Positions 3,806-64,000 are shown, counted from the stretch's first letter. The stretch: 64,000 nucleotides of DNA from Gammaproteobacteria bacterium (GCA_030429735.1 JAUIET010000006.1:1-64000), one strand, 5' to 3'. Notes: generated by a model not told the origin, from the sequence alone. Made by a program: numbers and translations.

Positions 3806-5104
3806 ATGGAATTTACAGAGCTGATGGAAATGGTGTCCACTCGCGACAGCGACGCGACAGACTTTGAGCATGACATTGAATTAGCAACGCCGAACACGCA
3901 CACCGCATACTTCAGCGGTGAACGAGATCCGAACGATCCGATACTTGCATTGATTGTCGATGACAGTGAGGCAGACAGAGTATTGCTGCAGCACTACATA
4001 AACCAAACGGGTGAAGCCATTCATGTTATTCAGAGTCGAGACCTGGAAGACGCCTTTGAGCAGCTGAGCCAGCAGCCCATCGACATAGTACTTCTGGACT
4101 ATTTATTACCTGAAGGGGTGCTCGGACCAGAGCACATTCCTGAAATTCGCAGCGTCGCCAGGAATAGACACTTACCAATTGTGGTGCTCACCGGCTACGG
4201 CGATGAAAGGAAAGCAGCTGATGCGTTTAAAGACGGTGCCTCTGATTACCTCAGCAAAAACGATATTTCTCCCGGCAGTATTTATCGGTCAATCTCAAAT
4301 GCCCTGGACAAAGCCAACCTGGAAAGACAGGTGGAGCACAATCGTGCTGTCATCATGCAAACCAACCGCAAGTTGCGGCAACAAAATGCCCAGATACGCT
4401 CGTTCTACCAGACCGTGTCGCATGAACTGAAATCGCCACTTGCGGGTGCGAAGGAATTTACCTCGCTGGTGTTGGATGGCATTGGCGGCGACATCAACGA
4501 AAAACAGGAAACCTGGTTAAAGTACGCAAATCAATGCTGGGATACGCTGAACAAACTGATTGACGATCTTCTGGACTCAGCGGCCATAGAGAATGGCAAG
4601 CTGCGAATTGAACCCGAATACAGTGACGTCGACGACATAGCCCGGCAATGTCTGCGCCGCTATCAGATCACTGCGAAAAGAAAAGATATTGAGCTCAGTT
4701 ACCAGTGCACGGCGAAGAACACCAAGCTGATGTGCGACCCGTTACGCATTGAGCAGTTAATGTCTAATTTGCTCAGCAATGCGATAAAGGCAACACCAGA
4801 AGGCGGAAGCATAGCGTTTAATCTTGAAAGTGACGCCAGCGGCAAAATGATGAGCATTGCCGTGAAAGACACGGGCTGCGGAATACCAAAGGACAAATTG
4901 CTGGATGTATTCGAGAAGTTTCACCAGCTCGACTCAGAAGCTGGAACAGGTGGCAAACAACCCGGTATGGGGCTGGGCCTGTTCCTGTGTAAAACGATTG
5001 TTGAACTACATGGAGGTGAAATCGTTGTTCGCAGCGAGCCAGGAAAAGGCAGTGAGTTCAGAGCAATGCTGCCTGTTAAACCAACTAATGAAGTGACTGA
5101 ATAA
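3806..5104 (+). CDS. Receiver-histidine kinase hybrid
   Basis: The 432-residue protein has an N-terminal receiver domain with a full active site (D52/D53, D98 in VLLDYLLP, T129, K151). A helical linker leads to HisKA with H206 in VSHELKSPLAG and HATPase_c with NLLSNAIKA, DTGCGI and GMGLGLFL. The start ATG is preceded by GGAGAA. With the regulator at 5159-5563 it forms a pair duplicated from, or parental to, the pair at 70-1720. The N-terminal receiver probably lets an upstream kinase tune this kinase. No membrane segments are seen. Confidence 0.93.
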   Translation: MEFTELMEMVSTRDSDATDFEHDIELATPNTHTAYFSGERDPNDPILALIVDDSEADRVLLQHYINQTGEAIHVIQSRDLEDAFEQLSQQPIDIVLLDYLLPEGVLGPEHIPEIRSVARNRHLPIVVLTGYGDERKAADAFKDGASDYLSKNDISPGSIYRSISNALDKANLERQVEHNRAVIMQTNRKLRQQNAQIRSFYQTVSHELKSPLAGAKEFTSLVLDGIGGDINEKQETWLKYANQCWDTLNKLIDDLLDSAAIENGKLRIEPEYSDVDDIARQCLRRYQITAKRKDIELSYQCTAKNTKLMCDPLRIEQLMSNLLSNAIKATPEGGSIAFNLESDASGKMMSIAVKDTGCGIPKDKLLDVFEKFHQLDSEAGTGGKQPGMGLGLFLCKTIVELHGGEIVVRSEPGKGSEFRAMLPVKPTNEVTE

Positions 5105-5158
5105 ATCAGGCCTTCAACACATTTTTAATGACAATCTGAGTGGTACAGGAGAACTGTC

Positions 5159-5563
5159 ATGAAATCCGCAAAAAATACTACAATACTTATCGTCGATGAT
5201 GAATCACCCATACTCCAGGCCCTCAGAATCCGCCTGGAACACGCAAGATACGAAGTAATAGCAGCCAGAGACGTTGCAACAGCGTGCCAACTGGCACGGG
5301 AGAATGTGCCTGATATTGCATTGCTTGACGTCAACCTGCCTGGCGGTACAGGTTTTGAGCTTGCCGATAAGCTGGACAGGTTGTCACAGAAAACAATCTA
5401 TAAAGTGTTCATCTCCGCAAGTCGAAATAAGGAAAACCACGATCGCGCCTGGAAATGCGGCGCGGTTGCGTATCTTGAAAAGCCGTTCAGTACTGACCAG
5501 CTGTTCGATGCCTTGACTGAAATCGATGAAAGGCGCTTTTCCTTACCTGATGCATTCGCCTGA
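5159..5563 (+). CDS. Single-domain response regulator (CheY-like)
   Basis: A 134-residue stand-alone receiver with D13/D14, phospho-acceptor D57 (ALLDVNLPGG), Ser at 86 for the usual Thr, and K108 (LEKPF). It lies 54 bp after the hybrid kinase. It is the same length as the regulator at 70-474 and aligns to it without gaps, including the run RLEHA and the C-terminal IDE/D-containing tail. The partner kinase is almost certainly the gene upstream. Confidence 0.93.
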   Translation: MKSAKNTTILIVDDESPILQALRIRLEHARYEVIAARDVATACQLARENVPDIALLDVNLPGGTGFELADKLDRLSQKTIYKVFISASRNKENHDRAWKCGAVAYLEKPFSTDQLFDALTEIDERRFSLPDAFA

Positions 5564-5697
5564 TTGCGAGGACAGCAACTGGATTATCCCGAGCGATACA
5601 ACTAAGCTTTTTTAAAGACCTGGCAGCTAAGCAACTCTCCACAGCTGGATCCAGACTTTAGTCCAACAATAACAAGCGGTATTCAAGAGGACACGAT

Positions 5698-6150
5698 TTG
5701 AGAAACCGAAGGCTCGATCGAGGTGTTGCGGAGATTCTCCTCGTGGAGGATAACCCAGGAGATGTGTTTCTCGCAAAAGAAGCATTTCGTCTGGGCCAAC
5801 TGCAGCCCAATATCAGCGTTGCAGAAGACGGCATGAAAGCACTGCAAATGCTGAAGAAAGTGGGCCCATACTCAGAGCAACCTCGCCCTGATTTGATCTT
5901 ACTCGACCTGAATTTACCGCGAAAGGACGGCCGTGAGTTACTCGAAGACGTAAAATGTGACCCTGCATTGCAACGCATACCGATCGTAGTGCTGACCAGC
6001 TCATGCGCCGAAGATGATGTATCTGATGCCTATGACCTGCATGCAAATGGTTACCTGGTCAAGCCACCGGATATGACAAGCTTCGTCGATATGGTAGCAG
6101 CCATAGAGAATTTCTGGTTGCGCGCAGTTGAACTCGCGGATGCCTGCTAG
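5698..6150 (+). CDS. Rcp1-type response regulator
   Basis: A 150-residue receiver of the Rcp1 class, which typically serves phytochrome-like kinases. It has LLVEDNPGD, the phospho-acceptor in LILLDLNLPRKDG, VVLTSSCAEDD and the lysine in LVKPPDM. The start appears to be TTG at 5698, with AGAGGA seven bases upstream; I see no good ATG nearby. Its end overlaps the next kinase gene, so the two are translationally coupled and probably a cognate pair. Confidence 0.9.
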   Translation: MRNRRLDRGVAEILLVEDNPGDVFLAKEAFRLGQLQPNISVAEDGMKALQMLKKVGPYSEQPRPDLILLDLNLPRKDGRELLEDVKCDPALQRIPIVVLTSSCAEDDVSDAYDLHANGYLVKPPDMTSFVDMVAAIENFWLRAVELADAC

Positions 6151-7915
6151 AAAAAACTCCTTGTTACGACTGCTCTACCACCCGGCCTCAGCCTGGGTGG
6201 CTTTGGCGATAGGATGCGTGCTAAGTCTGGCCATATCCAAGGCGTACCTTCTTTCTGTAGAAAAGAACTTCGAACATCGCTTCGCCGCGCAATCGGACCG
6301 GCTTGCCGGGCAAACGCATGATCGTATTCAAGGTGTTGCTTTCGAATTGCGAAGAATTGCCAGCGCCTACGCAGCATTTTCAGAACAAGGCGGTTTCGCG
6401 TGGCATAAGTACATCGACTCCTTGCAAGAATTGGCCAAAGATACGGCCGTTGTTGATCTGCGATTTGCGCGGCTGCAAGCAGAGCTTGTCAATAAGTCGG
6501 ATTATCTAGCCCACCCGGTAGTACACGACTGGCTCAGGAATTCACTCCCTGAAATCTGGACCAAGAACGGAGAACTTAACGCCGTATCAATTTCGCCTGC
6601 CTTTCGGTGGAATGATGCACTTACACGGGGCGACGAGGCACATTTCGCAATGATTGCGCCCGTGCTTGATCAACAGGGTCAGCACGCCGGTTGGTTGCTT
6701 GCACGCGTTAGCAGCCGAAAACTAGTGAATTACGCGGCACCATCAGATGGCTCAATTATCGATCTACAGTTGTTTCACGGGCAATCCACGGAGCAAAGTG
6801 CATTGCTGTATGGTACTAACAGGGTAAATCAAATCGCTGCTGCAGATGACCCACAAGACGTACTGACCTTATCAAGACCACTTCTCGTCGAAGGTCATCC
6901 CTGGACTCTGCGTCTGCATTCCACGGCCAGAGTTGGCTCGGCGCTGCCCTCGCTGCTGATTGGTGCCAATCTGTTCGTTCACTTGTTATTGGTGGTGATT
7001 ATTTTTGGAATCTTGTATTCGCACAAATTCGTCAGACTCAAAGGTGAACAAACTGCAGAAAAATTGCGGCAAAGTAAGCGCGGGCTGGAAAAAGAAATTG
7101 AGAAGCGCACAGAGCAATTACAGGATAAGGTAGATGAAGCCGAAGAACTTGTAGCGCAGCTCACCAATATGAATGACGAGTTACGGCAGTTTACCTACGT
7201 AGCATCACATGACCTGAACGAACCGTTGCGCATGATCGTCAGCTTTACCGATTTGCTCTATCAAAAATATTCTGACAATCTGGACGACACAGCTAAGCAG
7301 TACATGAGCATTTCCGCCGAGAGTGCGCGCAGAATGCAAGCCATGCTGGGAGACCTGCTCGACTACACCAAGCTTGAGAACAATACCGAACGCTATACTC
7401 ACGTGCAATGTGGTGCTGAGCTTGAGTGCGTACTGATAGAGTTTTGCCTGGAAATCGAAAACAATGCGATCGAGATAGTACACGACAAGCTGCCCGTGAT
7501 TGTTTGTAATCGTGCACGGTTCGTGGCATTGATCAAAAACTTGATCGGCAATGCATTGCGCTACCGCAGAACCGATTGTCGCACCCTCATACAAATTAGT
7601 GTTGAGCAGGAGGATGACCATTGGGTGTTTTCAGTCAAAGACAATGGCATCGGTATCGAGGAGCGCTACTTTGACAGAATTTTTGAGCCGTTCAAACGTT
7701 TGCATGCTTACCATGAATTCGCGGGTACCGGCCTGGGGCTGGCAATTTGTCGAAAGGTTGCTGAGAGCTGGGGGGGTGAGTTGTGGCTTGAATCCCAGCT
7801 TGGGCAAGGCAGCACGTTCTACTTCACAATTCCTAAGAATCTGAACCCGGCACTGCACCATGACGACGCCGCAAACGACAAGGCACAACTGCATTCCTCG
7901 ATCGCAGCTGCGTGA
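6140..7915 (+). CDS. Transmembrane sensor histidine kinase
   Basis: A kinase of about 591 residues. One N-terminal transmembrane helix is followed by a large periplasmic sensor region (about 40-275, CHASE-like by layout), a second transmembrane helix (about 275-300) and a coiled coil. HisKA has its phospho-His in YVASHDLNEPLRM, and HATPase_c has NLIGNALRYR, DNGIGI and GTGLGLAI. The ATG at 6140 overlaps the Rcp1-like regulator by 11 bp; a TTG at 6128 in the same frame is possible. The architecture fits a surface sensor passing phosphate to the regulator just upstream. Confidence 0.92.
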   Translation: MPARKNSLLRLLYHPASAWVALAIGCVLSLAISKAYLLSVEKNFEHRFAAQSDRLAGQTHDRIQGVAFELRRIASAYAAFSEQGGFAWHKYIDSLQELAKDTAVVDLRFARLQAELVNKSDYLAHPVVHDWLRNSLPEIWTKNGELNAVSISPAFRWNDALTRGDEAHFAMIAPVLDQQGQHAGWLLARVSSRKLVNYAAPSDGSIIDLQLFHGQSTEQSALLYGTNRVNQIAAADDPQDVLTLSRPLLVEGHPWTLRLHSTARVGSALPSLLIGANLFVHLLLVVIIFGILYSHKFVRLKGEQTAEKLRQSKRGLEKEIEKRTEQLQDKVDEAEELVAQLTNMNDELRQFTYVASHDLNEPLRMIVSFTDLLYQKYSDNLDDTAKQYMSISAESARRMQAMLGDLLDYTKLENNTERYTHVQCGAELECVLIEFCLEIENNAIEIVHDKLPVIVCNRARFVALIKNLIGNALRYRRTDCRTLIQISVEQEDDHWVFSVKDNGIGIEERYFDRIFEPFKRLHAYHEFAGTGLGLAICRKVAESWGGELWLESQLGQGSTFYFTIPKNLNPALHHDDAANDKAQLHSSIAAA

Positions 7916-7921
7916 ACAGAA

Positions 7922-8317
7922 TTAGTTTTTGAGGCCCAGGTCTTGGCGTCTAAAGGTCCGCCCCAAACGCCGTTGCTGAACCTGCTGTTCCATCTGACTG
8001 CGCATTGTTGTGTCTGTAAGCAACACCCACACTGAGCCATCGGCAACAAATACATCAACACTTGCGTACTGCGCCCTCAGCAATTGAACTCGTTCGAAAT
8101 GCAACTGCTGTTGATTCTGCTCTAACACGCCTTCCAGCATTGGGAACTGCTGAGTGACTGAGTCACCTATGGTCAAGGTATCCAATGAGTAACGCGCCAA
8201 AGCGCCACCCAGGGAGACCAGATTGTGCCGGGCATTCACTTGCAGATACGCTGGGCTATTGGCACTGCTAAGGCCTTCAACAAACGCTAGTACTGGAGTG
8301 GGCAAAACAGGTGTCAT
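7922..8317 (-). CDS. PAS-like small protein of the GTPase operon
   Basis: A 131-residue protein resembling the small PAS-like proteins found beside bacterial small GTPases and cyclases. It has a Leu/Val-rich start, GGALARYSLDTLTIGD, FPMLEGVL, and a late strand SVWVLLTDTT followed by a basic Gln-rich tail. I recognise the fold from this pattern only; the ligand is unknown. It is the last gene of a four-gene minus-strand unit, 20 bp after the small GTPase. Its 3' end faces the kinase at 6140-7915 with only 6 bp between the stops. Confidence 0.7.
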   Translation of the reverse strand: MTPVLPTPVLAFVEGLSSANSPAYLQVNARHNLVSLGGALARYSLDTLTIGDSVTQQFPMLEGVLEQNQQQLHFERVQLLRAQYASVDVFVADGSVWVLLTDTTMRSQMEQQVQQRRLGRTFRRQDLGLKN

Positions 8318-8337
8318 TGAGCTATTAGCCTCTGAAT

Positions 8338-8832
8338 TTACTGCTGCAGCCTGGTGGCCAGGCTGACGAACATTTGTTCTACATTCTGTCCAGTCTTGGC
8401 ACTGGTCTCGAAGGTTGCCAAAGCACCTGACTTGAGGGTCTCCAATCCGTCAGAGGTAAGTACCCATTGCTCTCTTAAGTCTGCTTTGTTGATCGCCAAA
8501 ACGTAGTCAAGCGCGCCATGTTTCTGCTCGATCAGTTTCTGCATTTGACTCGCGTGCTGCAAGGTATGCGCCCGAGTTGGATCAAGCACCAATATGTAAG
8601 CGGCCATGCCCTTCAAATACACTGGCAGCGCTATCTCGCCGCCTTCGTCACCCTGCACATCCCAGATCACCAGGGAGACCGAATTGTCACGCAAGGTAAC
8701 AACTTTTTTGTCTATTTTCACACCGAGCGTCGTCTGGTATTGCTCGGAAAAAATACTGTCGACGTACTGTCTGACAAGACTTGTCTTGCCAACAGCAAAG
8801 GTTCCCAGCATACAAATTTTTCTCTGAATCAT
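8338..8832 (-). CDS. Ras/Rab-like small GTPase
   Basis: A 164-residue single-domain GTPase. The P-loop is GTFAVGKTSL, switch I carries TTLGVKI, G3 is WDVQGDE, G4 is NKAD and G5 is TSAKTG. Prokaryotic Ras/Rab-like GTPases are known (the MglA family is one example), and this one is closer in look to the Rab type. The position of Ras Gln61 is Asp here (DVQGD), which may mean low intrinsic hydrolysis or a different GAP mechanism. Partners are probably the PAS-like protein downstream and the membrane DUF protein upstream. Confidence 0.9.
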   Translation of the reverse strand: MIQRKICMLGTFAVGKTSLVRQYVDSIFSEQYQTTLGVKIDKKVVTLRDNSVSLVIWDVQGDEGGEIALPVYLKGMAAYILVLDPTRAHTLQHASQMQKLIEQKHGALDYVLAINKADLREQWVLTSDGLETLKSGALATFETSAKTGQNVEQMFVSLATRLQQ

Positions 8833-8861
8833 CCGTAATATCCGTCTCGGTCAACAGCCCG

Positions 8862-57121: not shown

Positions 57122-57303
57122 ATTAATAAGAGATAAAGTTGAAACCCAAAACATGACCAACGGTCGATTTCAGAAGAATTTCGATACTTTGTTCACATTT
57201 CGATCAATTTATCGCTTTAATAGCATGCCGCAGAGCGGAAACTGGTATTGATCAAAAATTGTCTACTAGGCTGAATAATAAACAACAAGATTATTATTTG
57301 ACC

Positions 57304-58311
57304 ATGGAACAAACCGGACACAGCCAAGTCACAGGCTTGGGAAGCTACCTCCCAGAGCAAGTTGTACGATCGGAGGAGCTAATGGATGCCTTTGACTCTG
57401 AGCTCCGTTTTGGCATTCCCAAACGATACCTGTCTGCACTTGTAGGTATTCAGGAGCGCCGATTTGCGCCCGACGGCAGCGCACCTTCTGACCTGGCTAT
57501 CGAGGCAAGTCTGAATGCTATCGAAAGCTCTGGTGTAGATCCGGCTGATATAGATTACGTAATTTATTGCGGCATTGATCGCGACTGGATAGAACCTGCT
57601 ACGGCTCATCGTGTACAGCACGAAGTGGGTGCGAAGAATGCGGCGTGTTTTGACGTCACCAATGCCTGCCACGGGATGATGAATGGTCTGGCGATTGGTG
57701 ATGCGTTCATAGGCGCTAAGGGTGCGAGCACGATTCTTGTTTGCACCGCAGAACTAGGATCTACTACGACCAAATCGGCACTTGAGCTACTGAACAAACC
57801 CGACATTAGTAAGGAGCGGGTAAAATCGTTGCTAGGTGGCTTAACCTTGGGGGATGCGGGCGGCGCCATGATCATCCGCGCTTCTGAAAACCACCGTGGC
57901 TTCCGTCGTTTTGTGTTTGGCAGTGCTGGCAAACATACTGGTCTTTGCCAAATGAATAAGGATGAAAATGGCCTGAAAGAGGGCCACGTTGACATGCAGG
58001 CAATTTGCACTGAAGCGATCAGTTATCACCAGCAGTTAATTGAGAATACGTACGAGAAGCTCAATTGGTCGCCAAAAGACGTTAACTCTCTTGTTCTGCA
58101 TCAAGCGGGGTTGAAGCCGCACAAACAATTATCGCGCGTGGCCGATATTGACCCTGGTCGTGCCCCGGAAACAATCTCCAAATTGGGCAATTTAGCCAGC
58201 GCAACCATTCCCGTCGTACTCGACTTGAATCGGCCTGCGGCAAATGATAATGTGCTGATTCTAAGTACGGGAAGTGGGCTTTCCGTGGGTCAGACTGGGT
58301 TAGTTTTCTAG
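57304..58311 (+). CDS. 3-oxoacyl-ACP synthase III-like condensing enzyme
   Basis: A 335-residue thiolase-fold KAS III/OleA-like enzyme. The triad is Cys122 (DVTNACHGMMNG), His in LVLHQAGLKPHK and Asn in LGNLASATIPVVL. It begins with GLGSYLPEQVV as in FabH. Start ATG 57304; the frame extends to 57259. It condenses acyl thioesters; whether it starts fatty acid synthesis or joins two acyl chains is open. No acyl carrier or partner enzyme is adjacent. Confidence 0.87.
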   Translation: MEQTGHSQVTGLGSYLPEQVVRSEELMDAFDSELRFGIPKRYLSALVGIQERRFAPDGSAPSDLAIEASLNAIESSGVDPADIDYVIYCGIDRDWIEPATAHRVQHEVGAKNAACFDVTNACHGMMNGLAIGDAFIGAKGASTILVCTAELGSTTTKSALELLNKPDISKERVKSLLGGLTLGDAGGAMIIRASENHRGFRRFVFGSAGKHTGLCQMNKDENGLKEGHVDMQAICTEAISYHQQLIENTYEKLNWSPKDVNSLVLHQAGLKPHKQLSRVADIDPGRAPETISKLGNLASATIPVVLDLNRPAANDNVLILSTGSGLSVGQTGLVF

Positions 58312-59767: not shown

Positions 59768-60850
59768 TCAAGCCAACCCGGGAATCTCGCAAAAGAAATC
59801 GGCTTCTATCTTCACGCTGGATGGCGAATTATTGTGTTCGCCGGCGCTCCACGACGGCATCACCATGGAATACAAGCCATTTCCACCGGCCATTACTATC
59901 AGAAGTTGATCCGGACTGCTAAAGGCGTATTTCTTTTCCGGATTTGGCCCAGCCATCGCGCCAAGCAAATTTTTCACTTTGTCCGGTGACATGAAACAAA
60001 TTTCGCATAACTCGTTAGCTATGTTGGCGCGCGTTAAACCGGCCGCGTGCAACACATTGGCGTGGTCAGGATTTAACACAACGGCGGCTGTTCCGCTGCC
60101 AAGAATTGCGTTGTTGGTAGCGGTGTTTGCTAAGGCAGCCGCCAATTGTGAAAGCAACAGTTTGTAGTGCTCTTTATCATCAGCGTCCGGAATGTAAATT
60201 ACTGAATGCGGAGCTTCCGCACCCAACACGGTAACCACGCTGTCTTCTGCCTGAAAACCTAAATCAACGTGCAGAGGGACAAACGGACTGTTTTCTTCAT
60301 CTTCGGCAAGGCAGTAAGTGAACTTGCCTGGGTGGCCAAGCAAGGCCATGTCAGAACTGCCCGGGCGGCCTTTGCCAATATTGATCATTGCTAAACGCAA
60401 GGCTCGGCCGATAGAGGCATTGGCACGATGACCTGGCCCGAGTGCGCCATAGCCAGAGGCGATTGGACCGCAGTTATGTCGCGCTGGCCCGTTCACAATA
60501 ATCAGTGGCGCCGTACAGTGAGTAGTGGCCTGCATCTCGGTTAAGTCAAACACCGGGTCGATCACTGCTTTCGCCGCTGCGACAACAACCGGCATATAGT
60601 CCGTCAGGCAACCGGCCATCACGGCCGATACAGCTATCTTTTCGATGGTGGCCACTCCACCGCCCGGACCCATTGTTCCCAGTATCATGTCAGGTTCCAT
60701 GCCAGAGGCCAGCACCATGCGCCTAACCCTTTCCGCTGTGGGGATTACAACCGGAAGACCATCGGTACAACCCCGCGCGTGCAAATCTTCAAGTGCGGCT
60801 TCTTCCGAGCTGGCTGAAAGCAGTTCAGGCACGTATTCCCTCCAGTGCAT
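59768..60850 (-). CDS. Conserved protein paired with the UGSC selenoprotein
   Basis: A protein of about 360 residues with no domain I can name. It is cytoplasmic (no signal or membrane segment) and rich in Gly and Cys, with conserved-looking blocks: ARGCTDGLPVVIPTAERV, MGPGGGVATIEKIAVSAV, NGPARHNCGPIASGYGALG, GRPGSSDMALLGHPGKF and IVMAGGNGLYSMVM. It starts at ATG 60850 inside the end of the UGSC gene (26-bp overlap), so the two are made together and may act as one enzyme. Confidence 0.75.
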   Translation of the reverse strand: MHWREYVPELLSASSEEAALEDLHARGCTDGLPVVIPTAERVRRMVLASGMEPDMILGTMGPGGGVATIEKIAVSAVMAGCLTDYMPVVVAAAKAVIDPVFDLTEMQATTHCTAPLIIVNGPARHNCGPIASGYGALGPGHRANASIGRALRLAMINIGKGRPGSSDMALLGHPGKFTYCLAEDEENSPFVPLHVDLGFQAEDSVVTVLGAEAPHSVIYIPDADDKEHYKLLLSQLAAALANTATNNAILGSGTAAVVLNPDHANVLHAAGLTRANIANELCEICFMSPDKVKNLLGAMAGPNPEKKYAFSSPDQLLIVMAGGNGLYSMVMPSWSAGEHNNSPSSVKIEADFFCEIPGLA

Positions 60851-61361
60851 CAACAATTTGTGCGGCGATATCGTGCGCCACTTTGCGCATGTTTTCCACG
60901 CCGCTGCCCGCCACAGGGTGGGGTAGCCTTATTCGTGGCGCATCTGGCATACCCAGAGATTCGGCCACAAAATCGCCTTGCGGCCAAAATTCATCGGTTA
61001 CAAGTGATACAGCAGGTATTCCAAGCTTTGCTAAATTGATTCCGTCACGCACGGTGCCGGTGGTGCAAGAGCCTCAGTGCCCGTAGGCAGCAACCGCCGC
61101 GGTACAGTGCTCTTGTATCTCGGCCAGCATGTCGTCATTGGCCGGGAACGTAGGGTTACCTTTGTTGAAGTCAAAGACAGTGATCGAAGGTTCTACCTCT
61201 TGCATCGCTTTCGCAACTTCGCGCAGAAAATTCTCGGAATCGGGAAAGCCATTGGCCAGAAAGGCTACGTTAACACCTTTGCTGCCGCGAACTGAGGTAG
61301 ATAAATTATACGGAATGCGCTCAACACCGACTTTTGCATCCGGATTATGGTATTCGATCAT
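60825..61361 (-). CDS. UGSC-motif selenoprotein
   Basis: The frame from ATG 61361 (perfect AGGAGG upstream) is open for 178 residues apart from one TGA (61074-61076), codon 96. The residues around it are AAYGH-U-GSCTTGTVRDG, the UGSC motif of a described seleno/Cys protein family, where U is selenocysteine. Flanks are intact on both sides (FLANGFPDSENFLREV before, KLGIPAVSLVTDEFW after). This is therefore read-through, not two short ORFs. The U-x2-C motif suggests a redox site. It overlaps the partner gene downstream and lies 131 bp after the V4R-like gene. Confidence 0.85.
61049..61066 (-). promoter_or_regulatory. Candidate SECIS of the UGSC gene
   Basis: Seven bases after the TGA on the minus strand, GCAC and GTGC can pair around a 10-nt loop (CACCGGCACC). 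It is shorter and less canonical than the GPx SECIS, and alternative pairings exist. The assignment rests mainly on the need for a SECIS here. Confidence 0.3.
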
Positions 61362-61492
61362 AAGTCCTCCTGATTAAATGTGGAGAGGGAAGAGTTGCGC
61401 TCTCGAGAGAAATGCCCTCTTTCGTCATAAACTCTATTCGATAATGACAGTTGACGCAACGCCTCATTCCGTCGCGCATGTGCTGGTTCTTG

Positions 61493-62314
61493 CTAAGTTG
61501 CCCAGGTCATCCGGACTGTGCACGAAGTTTCGGGCAGATGCGGTTCAAACTCCATCTTCAAGCCGCCATTTTCGCCTTTAAACAGTGCTTCAAATGGTCC
61601 CTTACAAATATTGAGGCAGCCTTCTTCCGGCAATGCATCAGGATTCGGCAATGAGCTTTGCTTGGCGCACACGTGCCAACCGCATTCGGGTATTTCAATA
61701 ACGGTGCGGCCGTTGGCAGGATCCAGTTCTGTGATGGTTGCTGGCCCTGTCAACCAGCCGGCGGGATTGAACATTTCAAACATCATTTTGGTGATTCTGC
61801 CCGGCTTATTGGAACCTGGTTTGGACCCCTTGCCGTTGTTGCTTTTCTTCTTGCGATTTTTTTCCGGCATGCTGTTCATCATTGCCAGAAAATCAGCAGA
61901 TGTTTCGCGTGACGTTGCAACACTTGTTCCAATAACAATATCCTCGTATTGCGCTTGTGAATAGTATTTGCGTAATTCCAGTAATGCCCACTCAACTTCA
62001 CGAACAAAGTTGCCATAGCGCTTACGCCATTTCTCACGAGGCGAGTCAAAAAAACTGACGATTTCGCGGTGGGTGCGAATAGACTGGTAGTCTTGTTCGA
62101 GTTGCTCCCGGTCATCACAAGTCAAACGAAGAATAGGCAGCAGCGTGTGACTGACAATGAGCGAGGCTTTTTTTACCAGCATCCTGTCAGACATCCACAT
62201 ATCAATCCACGCTTGTGGACCCCATTGATGGATAAAACCGGACCGCCTCCTGGCGCTGCTTTGGCGCCCATTAGTATCCCGACGATCTGACGCGATAATA
62301 GATGAGTCCTTCAT
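61493..62314 (-). CDS. V4R/ATC-hydrolase-like protein
   Basis: A 273-residue protein. The N-terminal half is helical (about 30-150). A Lys/Gly/Ser-rich linker follows (KKKSNNGKGSKPGSNK). The C-terminal part carries ECGWHVCA, EEGCLNICKGPFEALF and HLPETSCTVRM, like the Cys-rich domain of L-2-amino-thiazoline-4-carboxylate hydrolases and V4R proteins. The exact reaction is unknown. It starts inside the TonB receptor stop codon (ATGA overlap), so the receptor, this protein and the UGSC gene appear to be one unit. Confidence 0.65.
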   Translation of the reverse strand: MKDSSIIASDRRDTNGRQSSARRRSGFIHQWGPQAWIDMWMSDRMLVKKASLIVSHTLLPILRLTCDDREQLEQDYQSIRTHREIVSFFDSPREKWRKRYGNFVREVEWALLELRKYYSQAQYEDIVIGTSVATSRETSADFLAMMNSMPEKNRKKKSNNGKGSKPGSNKPGRITKMMFEMFNPAGWLTGPATITELDPANGRTVIEIPECGWHVCAKQSSLPNPDALPEEGCLNICKGPFEALFKGENGGLKMEFEPHLPETSCTVRMTWAT

Positions 62315-64000
62315 TTGAAGTCTCGTCGAAACGTCAGACCATAGGTTGTTTGCGGTGCAACAATACCGGCATACCCACCAACCGTAGGTATATCAAGCCC
62401 GAATACGAAATACTCTTCGTCCAGCAAGTTTCTGCCCCACAGTGCAAGCTCCCAATCATTTTTCAGATGTCTCAGCGAAAGCCGCAGGTTAATAAGATGC
62501 GTTGCGTCATTCTTCAAATTCTCATCCAGGTCTTGCTCGAGAAAAAAACCATCGGTGTAGTTATGCTCAAAACGGCTAACGGATAACAAATCATCAGACA
62601 ACAACTTCTCATATTGCATGTAAGAGCTAACGGTTATTTCAGGTGCGTTGTCCAATGGCTCCCCTTTTAAGTTCTGCAAACAAGGGGGATTCGAAAAACC
62701 GGGAGACAAGCCAACATTCCCATTCGTCACGTAATACTCGGTAAAAGTCTGCTCAATAGTGCACTGTCCATTGAGGAAATTCGAGTACTTAGCTTTGTTG
62801 AAACCGATGGCACTGCCAAAGTCGATGCTCTCTGAAACCACATAGGCGATATCCAGTTCCATACCCATGCTTTCCAGAGAGCCGGCGTTTGTCACTTTAA
62901 TGCTGGAACCGTCAAACCCCTGCGCTTGAAAATCTTCGTAGTCTACAAAGTACAATGAACCATTCACTTGCAGCCTGCGGTCCAGCCAGGTGCCTTTCCA
63001 GCCGAGCTCATAATTGGTGGCAATTTCCTCATCAAATTCGCCGTCTGAATCTGCTACTTCGCGACGCTGATTAAAGCCACCCGACTTAAAACCTCGGCTG
63101 ACACTGGCATAGGCCATTAAGTCCTGATTAATGAAATAGCGAAGGTTAATGGTTGGAGACAGGTCCAAATCGCTTCGTTTGTTATCGTAGATAATGTTCG
63201 GCCCCGCAACAGGGGGAATATCGATAATGTTGTTGGGCGCATCAATAAAGTAGCCTTCTGTAATCTGGGAGCCCTGCCGCTCTTTCTTTTCATAGGTAAG
63301 ACGCACACCGAAGGTAGCATTCCATTTGTCATTAATAGTCCAGCTAAGCTGACCAAATGCGGCGAAACTGGTGGTTGTGTACAAGTTAACATCGGTATTC
63401 AATGAGCCGATGGGGAAAAAAAAACCCAAACCTATATTGTTGACCAGCGGCACGCCCATATTGAATGTGCCTATGGAGTCAAATTCAGAGTAATACGCAA
63501 ACACACCTGCCTGGTACTCCAGTGTTTGACCGCTGACCGAGGCAAACCTCAATTCGGATGAATACTGGTCTAGCGAAACTGCCGTACTGGCTGTAACAGC
63601 GCCATAGGCAGTGAAATCGCCGTCGAAGGCACTGTCTGATTCGTAGTGTCGCCATGCATTGATAAACGTCAGGGAATGTTCTCCGGCAAGATCACGATTC
63701 CACTCAAGGCCAAGCCCGCCGACTTCGACTTTATTGCGGGTGTCACTATCCAGCCAATAATCATCTGCGAACGGGTTAGCAGGGGGTGGTGAAAACCCTT
63801 CCGTGTTTTCAAACGCCATAAAATCAAACACAGGTAGCCCAAAGCGCGGGCCGGGCGTGGTTACCGGGCCAAGTTCGGCGAGAAATTCCTCAGAACGCTG
63901 TGCCGTCAGTGGTGCGTTCAGTGTCGACAGGCCATCGTACGATATTGCTGCCAGTGCACAGCAATCGGTATCTTCTTTGGAGTAATCCAGTGTCAGTATT
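62311..64000 (-). CDS. TonB-dependent receptor, C-terminal part
   Basis: The frame is open from 62311 to the window edge (about 563 residues seen), so the N-terminal plug lies outside. It is a beta-barrel of the ferric-siderophore/vitamin receptor type: GLEWNRDLAGEHSLTFINAWR, the barrel strand SRGFKSGGFNQR, YELGWKGTWLDRRLQVNGSLYF, LWGRNLLDEEYFVFG and the C-terminal strand YGLTFRRDFK. The substrate is not evident. It heads the minus-strand unit with the V4R-like and UGSC proteins. Confidence 0.92.
   Translation of the reverse strand, partial: ILTLDYSKEDTDCCALAAISYDGLSTLNAPLTAQRSEEFLAELGPVTTPGPRFGLPVFDFMAFENTEGFSPPPANPFADDYWLDSDTRNKVEVGGLGLEWNRDLAGEHSLTFINAWRHYESDSAFDGDFTAYGAVTASTAVSLDQYSSELRFASVSGQTLEYQAGVFAYYSEFDSIGTFNMGVPLVNNIGLGFFFPIGSLNTDVNLYTTTSFAAFGQLSWTINDKWNATFGVRLTYEKKERQGSQITEGYFIDAPNNIIDIPPVAGPNIIYDNKRSDLDLSPTINLRYFINQDLMAYASVSRGFKSGGFNQRREVADSDGEFDEEIATNYELGWKGTWLDRRLQVNGSLYFVDYEDFQAQGFDGSSIKVTNAGSLESMGMELDIAYVVSESIDFGSAIGFNKAKYSNFLNGQCTIEQTFTEYYVTNGNVGLSPGFSNPPCLQNLKGEPLDNAPEITVSSYMQYEKLLSDDLLSVSRFEHNYTDGFFLEQDLDENLKNDATHLINLRLSLRHLKNDWELALWGRNLLDEEYFVFGLDIPTVGGYAGIVAPQTTYGLTFRRDFK

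Follow-up and report, generated by a model that had tools for sequence, protein, structure and literature searches.

A predicted UGSC-family selenoprotein and its obligate partner gene at a gammaproteobacterial locus

The window, a stretch of 64,000 nucleotides from a Gammaproteobacteria bacterium (GCA_030429735.1, JAUIET010000006.1:1-64000), ends in four genes that the original prediction had read as one uptake operon. The four reading frames do lie on a single strand, the minus strand, in the order predicted, and the features discussed below are the following:

59768..60832, minus strand: unnamed partner, 354 aa from GTG 60832, pairing with UGSC
60825..61361, minus strand: UGSC-family selenoprotein gene, 178 aa, ATG 61361, stop TGA 60827-60825
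61042..61060, minus strand: candidate bacterial SECIS hairpin, covering nt 17-35 when the T of the TGA is taken as nt 1
61074..61076, minus strand: TGA read, on comparative evidence, as selenocysteine, residue 96 (U96-G-S-C99)
61493..62314, minus strand: gene for a 273-aa protein, part of a separate module and not of the UGSC pair
62311..64000, minus strand: TonB-dependent receptor (PF00593, E=7.4e-37), the gene being cut by the window end

The UGSC gene starts at an ATG at 61361, just preceded by AGGAGG, and its frame (61361-60828), interrupted solely by the TGA at 61076-61074, yields the product of 178 residues that had been predicted. This product matches PF24696 (UGSC) with E=1.9e-42 and 145.8 bits, against a Pfam cut-off of 25; the match spans the TGA codon, and 82 conserved residues follow it. 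The score against NF041046 is 109.6 bits, below the NCBIfam cut-off of 125. The source genome carries one UGSC copy. The family itself is already known (PF24696 / NF041046) and was reported by Zhang and Gladyshev in 2008 (PMC2398784), and the window copy belongs to a Halieaceae/marine gammaproteobacterial subfamily. In agreement with that report (PMC2398784), the window copy has Sec in a U-G-S-C motif, a similar length, the invariant D106 and the HP motif, and Sec forms outnumber Cys forms here as well; moreover, the same paper describes an occasional fusion with another conserved domain (‘Unknown_1’), which is also seen here. The window subfamily differs from the rest of the family in its UGSCTTG motif, which lacks the third Cys of the UGSCxxC found in most other subfamilies, in the gene order (UGSC, then partner) and in having a partner without a thioredoxin domain. 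Across 34 diverse UGSC members, position 96 (Sec/Cys), G97, S98, C99, D106 and P149 are invariant.

The in-frame TGA was compared in two sets of relatives. In the order-level set of 391 genomes, 38 carry 53 over-cut-off UGSC matches, 52 of which have exactly one internal TGA, with Cys in the remaining one. The close-relative set consists of 80 public relatives of the partner, 62-79% identical, mostly from Halieaceae, OM182, K189A and other marine gammaproteobacterial assemblies, and in all 79 readable members, window included, TGA occupies the Sec codon. Codon 96 of the homologues, proposed as a check in the original prediction, was found to be TGA or Cys (Cys in UGSC loci L086 and L195) and never a random residue. 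Sec appears to be preferred in the family, because ocean data hold 255 Sec against 21 Cys forms (PMC2398784).

The candidate SECIS hairpin (stem CCG.CAC/GUG.CGG, loop CGUGC) lies close downstream of the TGA, as it should in a bacterial selenoprotein gene. Its 19 nt (nt 17-35) show one synonymous difference among 79 close relatives, and when entropy is computed for fourfold sites at conserved residues, codons +5 to +8 downstream of Sec give 0-0.1 versus a mean of 1.72 bits elsewhere; synonymous sites are frozen within the hairpin and nowhere else in the UGSC gene. More distant subfamilies keep the hairpin, nearly all relatives having the loop start 19-21 nt downstream of the TGA, and in one distant group two hairpin pairs are changed on both sides, that is, in a compensatory manner. 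When the hairpin register was slid in the distant subfamilies, none of the alternatives equaled the actual one on pairing or covariation. Single-sequence folding of the region gave z of about 0 to 0.8, an energy that is not exceptional; it was the comparative tests that gave the signal.

The genes for selenocysteine insertion, whose absence from the genome had been named as an argument against the read-through, are all present: the source genome has tRNA-Sec (selC, 76.7 bits, with ARAGORN in agreement), SelA (582 bits) adjoining the tRNA-Sec gene, SelB (347 bits) and SelD (226 bits, at G000:C22:282275-283192, locus L200). SelB also turned up in every one of the 21 further TGA-type genomes searched in the order; it was not found in two Cys-type genomes, one of which is only 75% complete, nor, at a strict threshold, in G673, a TGA-type genome outside the order. 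Because the profile match across the TGA, the relatives, the conservation of the SECIS region, the Sec genes and the distribution of SelB all agree, the TGA is best read as Sec, and we consider it almost certain, judging from these comparisons, that the UGSC gene is a true selenoprotein gene, as originally predicted. With respect to SelD, its coding sequence lies within a 757-aa open frame, long enough for an Ndh-SelD fusion, a kind of fusion described in marine bacteria.

The gene downstream of UGSC encodes the unnamed partner. The predicted 26-bp overlap between the two genes rests on ATG 60850, and the start used most often by relatives gives an overlap of 8 nt at the UGSC stop (28 with ATG, 16 with GTG and 2 with TTG), which in the window corresponds to GTG 60832, with GGAGGG just upstream. 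On this comparison GTG 60832 is the most likely start and ATG 60850 the less likely one, and the 26-bp overlap was abandoned. Regarding linkage, the partner is adjacent to or fused with UGSC in all 41 loci of the order (one single-chain fusion, L059; one convergent pair, L051; all others on the same strand), and UGSC adjoins the partner in 79/79 readable close relatives. Moreover, a profile search with the partner core found 32 of 352 genomes, exactly the same 32 that have UGSC, with neither gene alone anywhere; two independent genes would share identical 32-genome sets with a chance of about 10^-45, a figure that leaves relatedness out of account. Given the 41/41 adjacent or fused loci and these identical genome sets, UGSC and its partner constitute an obligate two-gene module, and very probably a functional unit. 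The cultured marine gammaproteobacterium HTCC2143 is among the carriers of the pair (L158). A third conserved gene was sought in the 41 and the 80 neighborhoods, and none was universal; the most frequent neighbors were a short-chain dehydrogenase/reductase (SDR; 26 loci, 15 members within 1.5 kb) and a fumarase (12 loci, 11 of them close), and an aldo/keto-reductase-like gene lies near the pair in 10 loci.

Sequence searches of Pfam, NCBIfam and the PDB gave no match to the partner core; in Pfam not a single family was matched at E up to 10, for which reason no pyruvoyl subunit could be recognized; likewise, none of 36 partner proteins matched a PrdA/GrdE-type family. Most of the longer partner relatives carry an N-terminal domain with C-x-x-C (CPTC in most) that is matched by thioredoxin-family models, a domain that the window partner lacks. 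Residues conserved in the partner are D21, C72, T101, G112-P113, R140, E174 and H254, numbered as in the comparison that showed the CPTC domain. A UGSC fusion with an unknown domain was already reported in 2008 (PMC2398784), and this domain, ‘Unknown_1’, is likely to be our partner. What is new here is that the partner is obligate and uncatalogued in Pfam/NCBIfam, although recent literature may already describe it; new, too, are the thioredoxin-like domain that the partner sometimes carries itself and a UGSC fold that is probably not thioredoxin.

That fold comes from structure prediction. The AF2 model of UGSC (pLDDT 94.9) has five strands alternating with five helices, a predicted flavodoxin/Rossmann-like arrangement in which U96 sits between strand 88-94 and helix 97-112, after strand 3; its structural matches are generic for this fold. 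A thioredoxin-like fold, in line with the Trx-like redox protein guessed in 2008 (PMC2398784), was considered and set aside, the predicted model not having the beta-alpha-beta-alpha-beta-beta-alpha topology. The partner core was modeled with a pLDDT of 83.8 and gave only weak structural matches (class I fumarase, E=8e-4; Toblerone-fold hydrolases, about 1e-2; best VIA-align Z of 6.3), and no fold was therefore assigned to it. PDB sequence searches with the partner, UGSC and 273-aa profiles returned nothing credible. No GRDB structure appeared in the PDB match lists, which is not evidence of a different fold.

The remaining two genes, separated from UGSC and its partner by a gap of 131 nt, tell a different story. 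The upstream one is a TonB-dependent receptor, as had been proposed, whose full length is 804 aa, running to about contig position 64725 (L002), and the ATGA overlap predicted at its junction with the 273-aa gene is present at 62314-62311. The 273-aa protein has several invariant Cys/His; it had been described as V4R/ATC-hydrolase-like, an identification that found no support, as neither Pfam family was matched and the only Pfam signal was D27-like_C at the C-terminus, with E=0.0035, below the cut-off. Among relatives of this protein (seven loci, L204-L210), a TonB receptor adjoins in 7/7 and an RPE65-family oxygenase in 6/7, L205 having two oxygenase copies. The oxygenase of the source genome (PF03055, RPE65 family, E=8e-129) is divergent and lies just outside the window, at C21:64856-66307 (L002:9856-11307), and its closest solved relative is lignostilbene dioxygenase. 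Receptor, 273-aa gene and divergent carotenoid-oxygenase-family gene are thus a separate conserved module, which looks as if it took up a substrate resembling stilbenes or carotenoids and cleaved it oxidatively. This likeness to TonB receptor plus RPE65/lignostilbene dioxygenase modules accounts for the two genes upstream of the UGSC pair, and the module is independent of UGSC in every relative examined.

In the uptake-operon reading that followed from the original prediction, the receptor would import a substrate to be processed by the 273-aa protein and the UGSC/partner enzyme. Since the genes share a strand, with the ATGA at the receptor/273-aa junction, and no terminator-like site lies in the 131-nt gap, read-through transcription is possible at this locus. 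Nevertheless, the linkage is not conserved: none of the 80 close-relative loci has the 273-aa gene next to the UGSC pair, a similar TonB receptor occurs in the same fetched stretch as the pair in 4 of 80, and UGSC or its partner is found beside the 273-aa relatives in 0 of 7 loci. Both modules being conserved separately, we regard a four-gene uptake operon as very improbable. It had also been stated that no described pathway links these four genes, which is true as it stands; however, such a pathway is lacking because the four are not a unit, UGSC and its partner being one. On this comparative evidence, what abut at the locus are two unrelated conserved modules, as each was kept without the other in the relatives examined.

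How might the UGSC pair work? We propose that the two products form one selenoenzyme of two subunits, in which the partner core would bind and position the substrate and the flavodoxin/Rossmann-like UGSC protein would present Sec96, at a helix start, as a strong nucleophile. Sec would attack an electrophilic center, at a C-X or S-X bond in the substrate, Cys99 would resolve the intermediate to a selenenylsulfide, and a dithiol would recycle the enzyme; in longer relatives this dithiol is probably the CPTC thioredoxin-like domain fused to the partner, and here it would be thioredoxin or another thiol acting in trans. The working mode would be like that of D-proline/glycine reductase, with a different subunit set and in marine gammaproteobacteria. 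We give this reading, Sec-dependent bond cleavage by the mechanism just outlined, a probability of roughly 45%. The thioredoxin-like fusion, the UxxC motif (invariant among UGSC members, with U or Cys at 96) and the rarity of Cys forms favor a chemistry that needs Sec, and a physical contact between UGSC and partner may be inferred from the fusion and the constant pairing of their genes.

The closest functional analogs of the pair would be D-proline and glycine reductase, enzymes that break Se-C bonds forming a selenenylsulfide (PMC10298544); in addition, C-F cleavage has been proposed for a GrdB-like pair (PMC10838667). D-proline reductase (PrdA/PrdB) and glycine reductase protein B are two-gene systems like the UGSC pair, in which a Sec-containing subunit with UxxC is joined by another subunit, and a dithiol recycles them (PMC10298544), as proposed for the UGSC pair. 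Nonetheless, the UGSC pair has no significant sequence similarity to PrdA/PrdB or GRDB and no recognized pyruvoyl subunit, and is found in marine gammaproteobacteria, whereas these reductases belong to amino-acid-fermenting anaerobes. A more far-reaching version of the proposal, which we hold with less conviction than the mechanism itself, is that the pair represents a new two-component selenoenzyme class unrelated to proline/glycine reductase, performing Sec-dependent reductive bond cleavage in marine-bacterial catabolism; the fold of its substrate-binding subunit would be new or strongly diverged, and many lineages would have a thioredoxin domain built in.

Two other explanations were weighed against Sec-dependent bond cleavage. 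The pair could be a Se-dependent thiol/peroxide oxidoreductase (a peroxidase, or a disulfide or sulfoxide reductase) serving in stress defense and not a bond-cleaving catabolic enzyme, which would agree with the UxxC motif and the thioredoxin-like domain of the long partners, with the glutathione transferases that neighbor the pair in three loci of the window type (L068, L073, L074) and with the 2008 guess (PMC2398784). We find this unlikely, as UGSC is predicted to fold in a flavodoxin/Rossmann-like manner and not like thioredoxin, with Sec following strand 3, a small oxidoreductase would not need an obligate 350-aa partner, and most neighbors of the pair are catabolic: CoA transferase III, thiolase, acyl-CoA dehydrogenase and enoyl-CoA hydratase, together with RraA-like proteins, proline racemase, glutathione transferases, class I fumarase and, at one locus, a GRDB-like selenoprotein. 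These neighbors suggest catabolism, without naming any substrate.

The second explanation, that UGSC and partner are true homologs of PrdB/GrdB and a pyruvoyl subunit, diverged past sequence recognition, and thus an ordinary member of the reductase superfamily, seems to us more doubtful still. A local profile-profile alignment of UGSC with GRDB/PrdB (PF07355) does place Sec on Sec over about 80 residues, and a GRDB-like selenoprotein (L073) and a proline racemase (L065) each stand beside the pair at one locus. However, that alignment, run with 34 and with 118 UGSC sequences, has E of about 0.054 and a probability of 1%, which is not significant, reversed sequences giving 0.14, and which makes UGSC and GRDB no more than possible homologs; none of the 34 UGSC members matched PF07355 at E up to 10, and the partner is without Pfam match, its weak structural resemblances being to class I fumarase and Toblerone-fold hydrolases. 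Whichever reading of the pair is preferred, the obligate partner, and the thioredoxin-like domain with which it is fused in many relatives, show what to co-express for activity, and UGSC expressed alone is likely to show nothing; with the co-expression needs named, the question of UGSC function therefore becomes directly testable.

Several individual loci deserve mention. In L065, a gene of the proline racemase family (7844-8833; PF05544, E=4e-86) lies directly downstream of the pair, an arrangement shared with proline reductase clusters. In L073, the pair has beside it a second selenoprotein gene with an internal TGA (5019-7607), matching GRDB (PF07355) with E=1.6e-5 and followed by two glutathione-transferase-like genes; L068 and L074, too, have glutathione transferases flanking the pair. 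In 11-12 of the 80 close relatives (L164, L068 and about ten others), the partner is followed at about 30 nt by the start of a class I fumarase gene, and the coincidence with the weak class I fumarase structural match of the partner is possibly fortuitous. Downstream of the UGSC pair, L087-L089 have a ketoacyl-synthase III-like gene, and another gene of the KAS III family is present in the window (57259-58311), about 1.5 kb from the pair and on the opposite strand.

Finally, SelB, UGSC, partner and 273-aa gene are patchily distributed even within the genus, since G001, the only same-genus genome compared, lacks all four. SelA and/or SelB were observed in the neighborhood of the UGSC pair in five loci (L071, L079, L081, L087 and L088), with Sec machinery genes directly downstream of the pair in L079 and L081 and after one gene in L088, which suggests that joint inheritance of the pair with the Sec machinery is possible.
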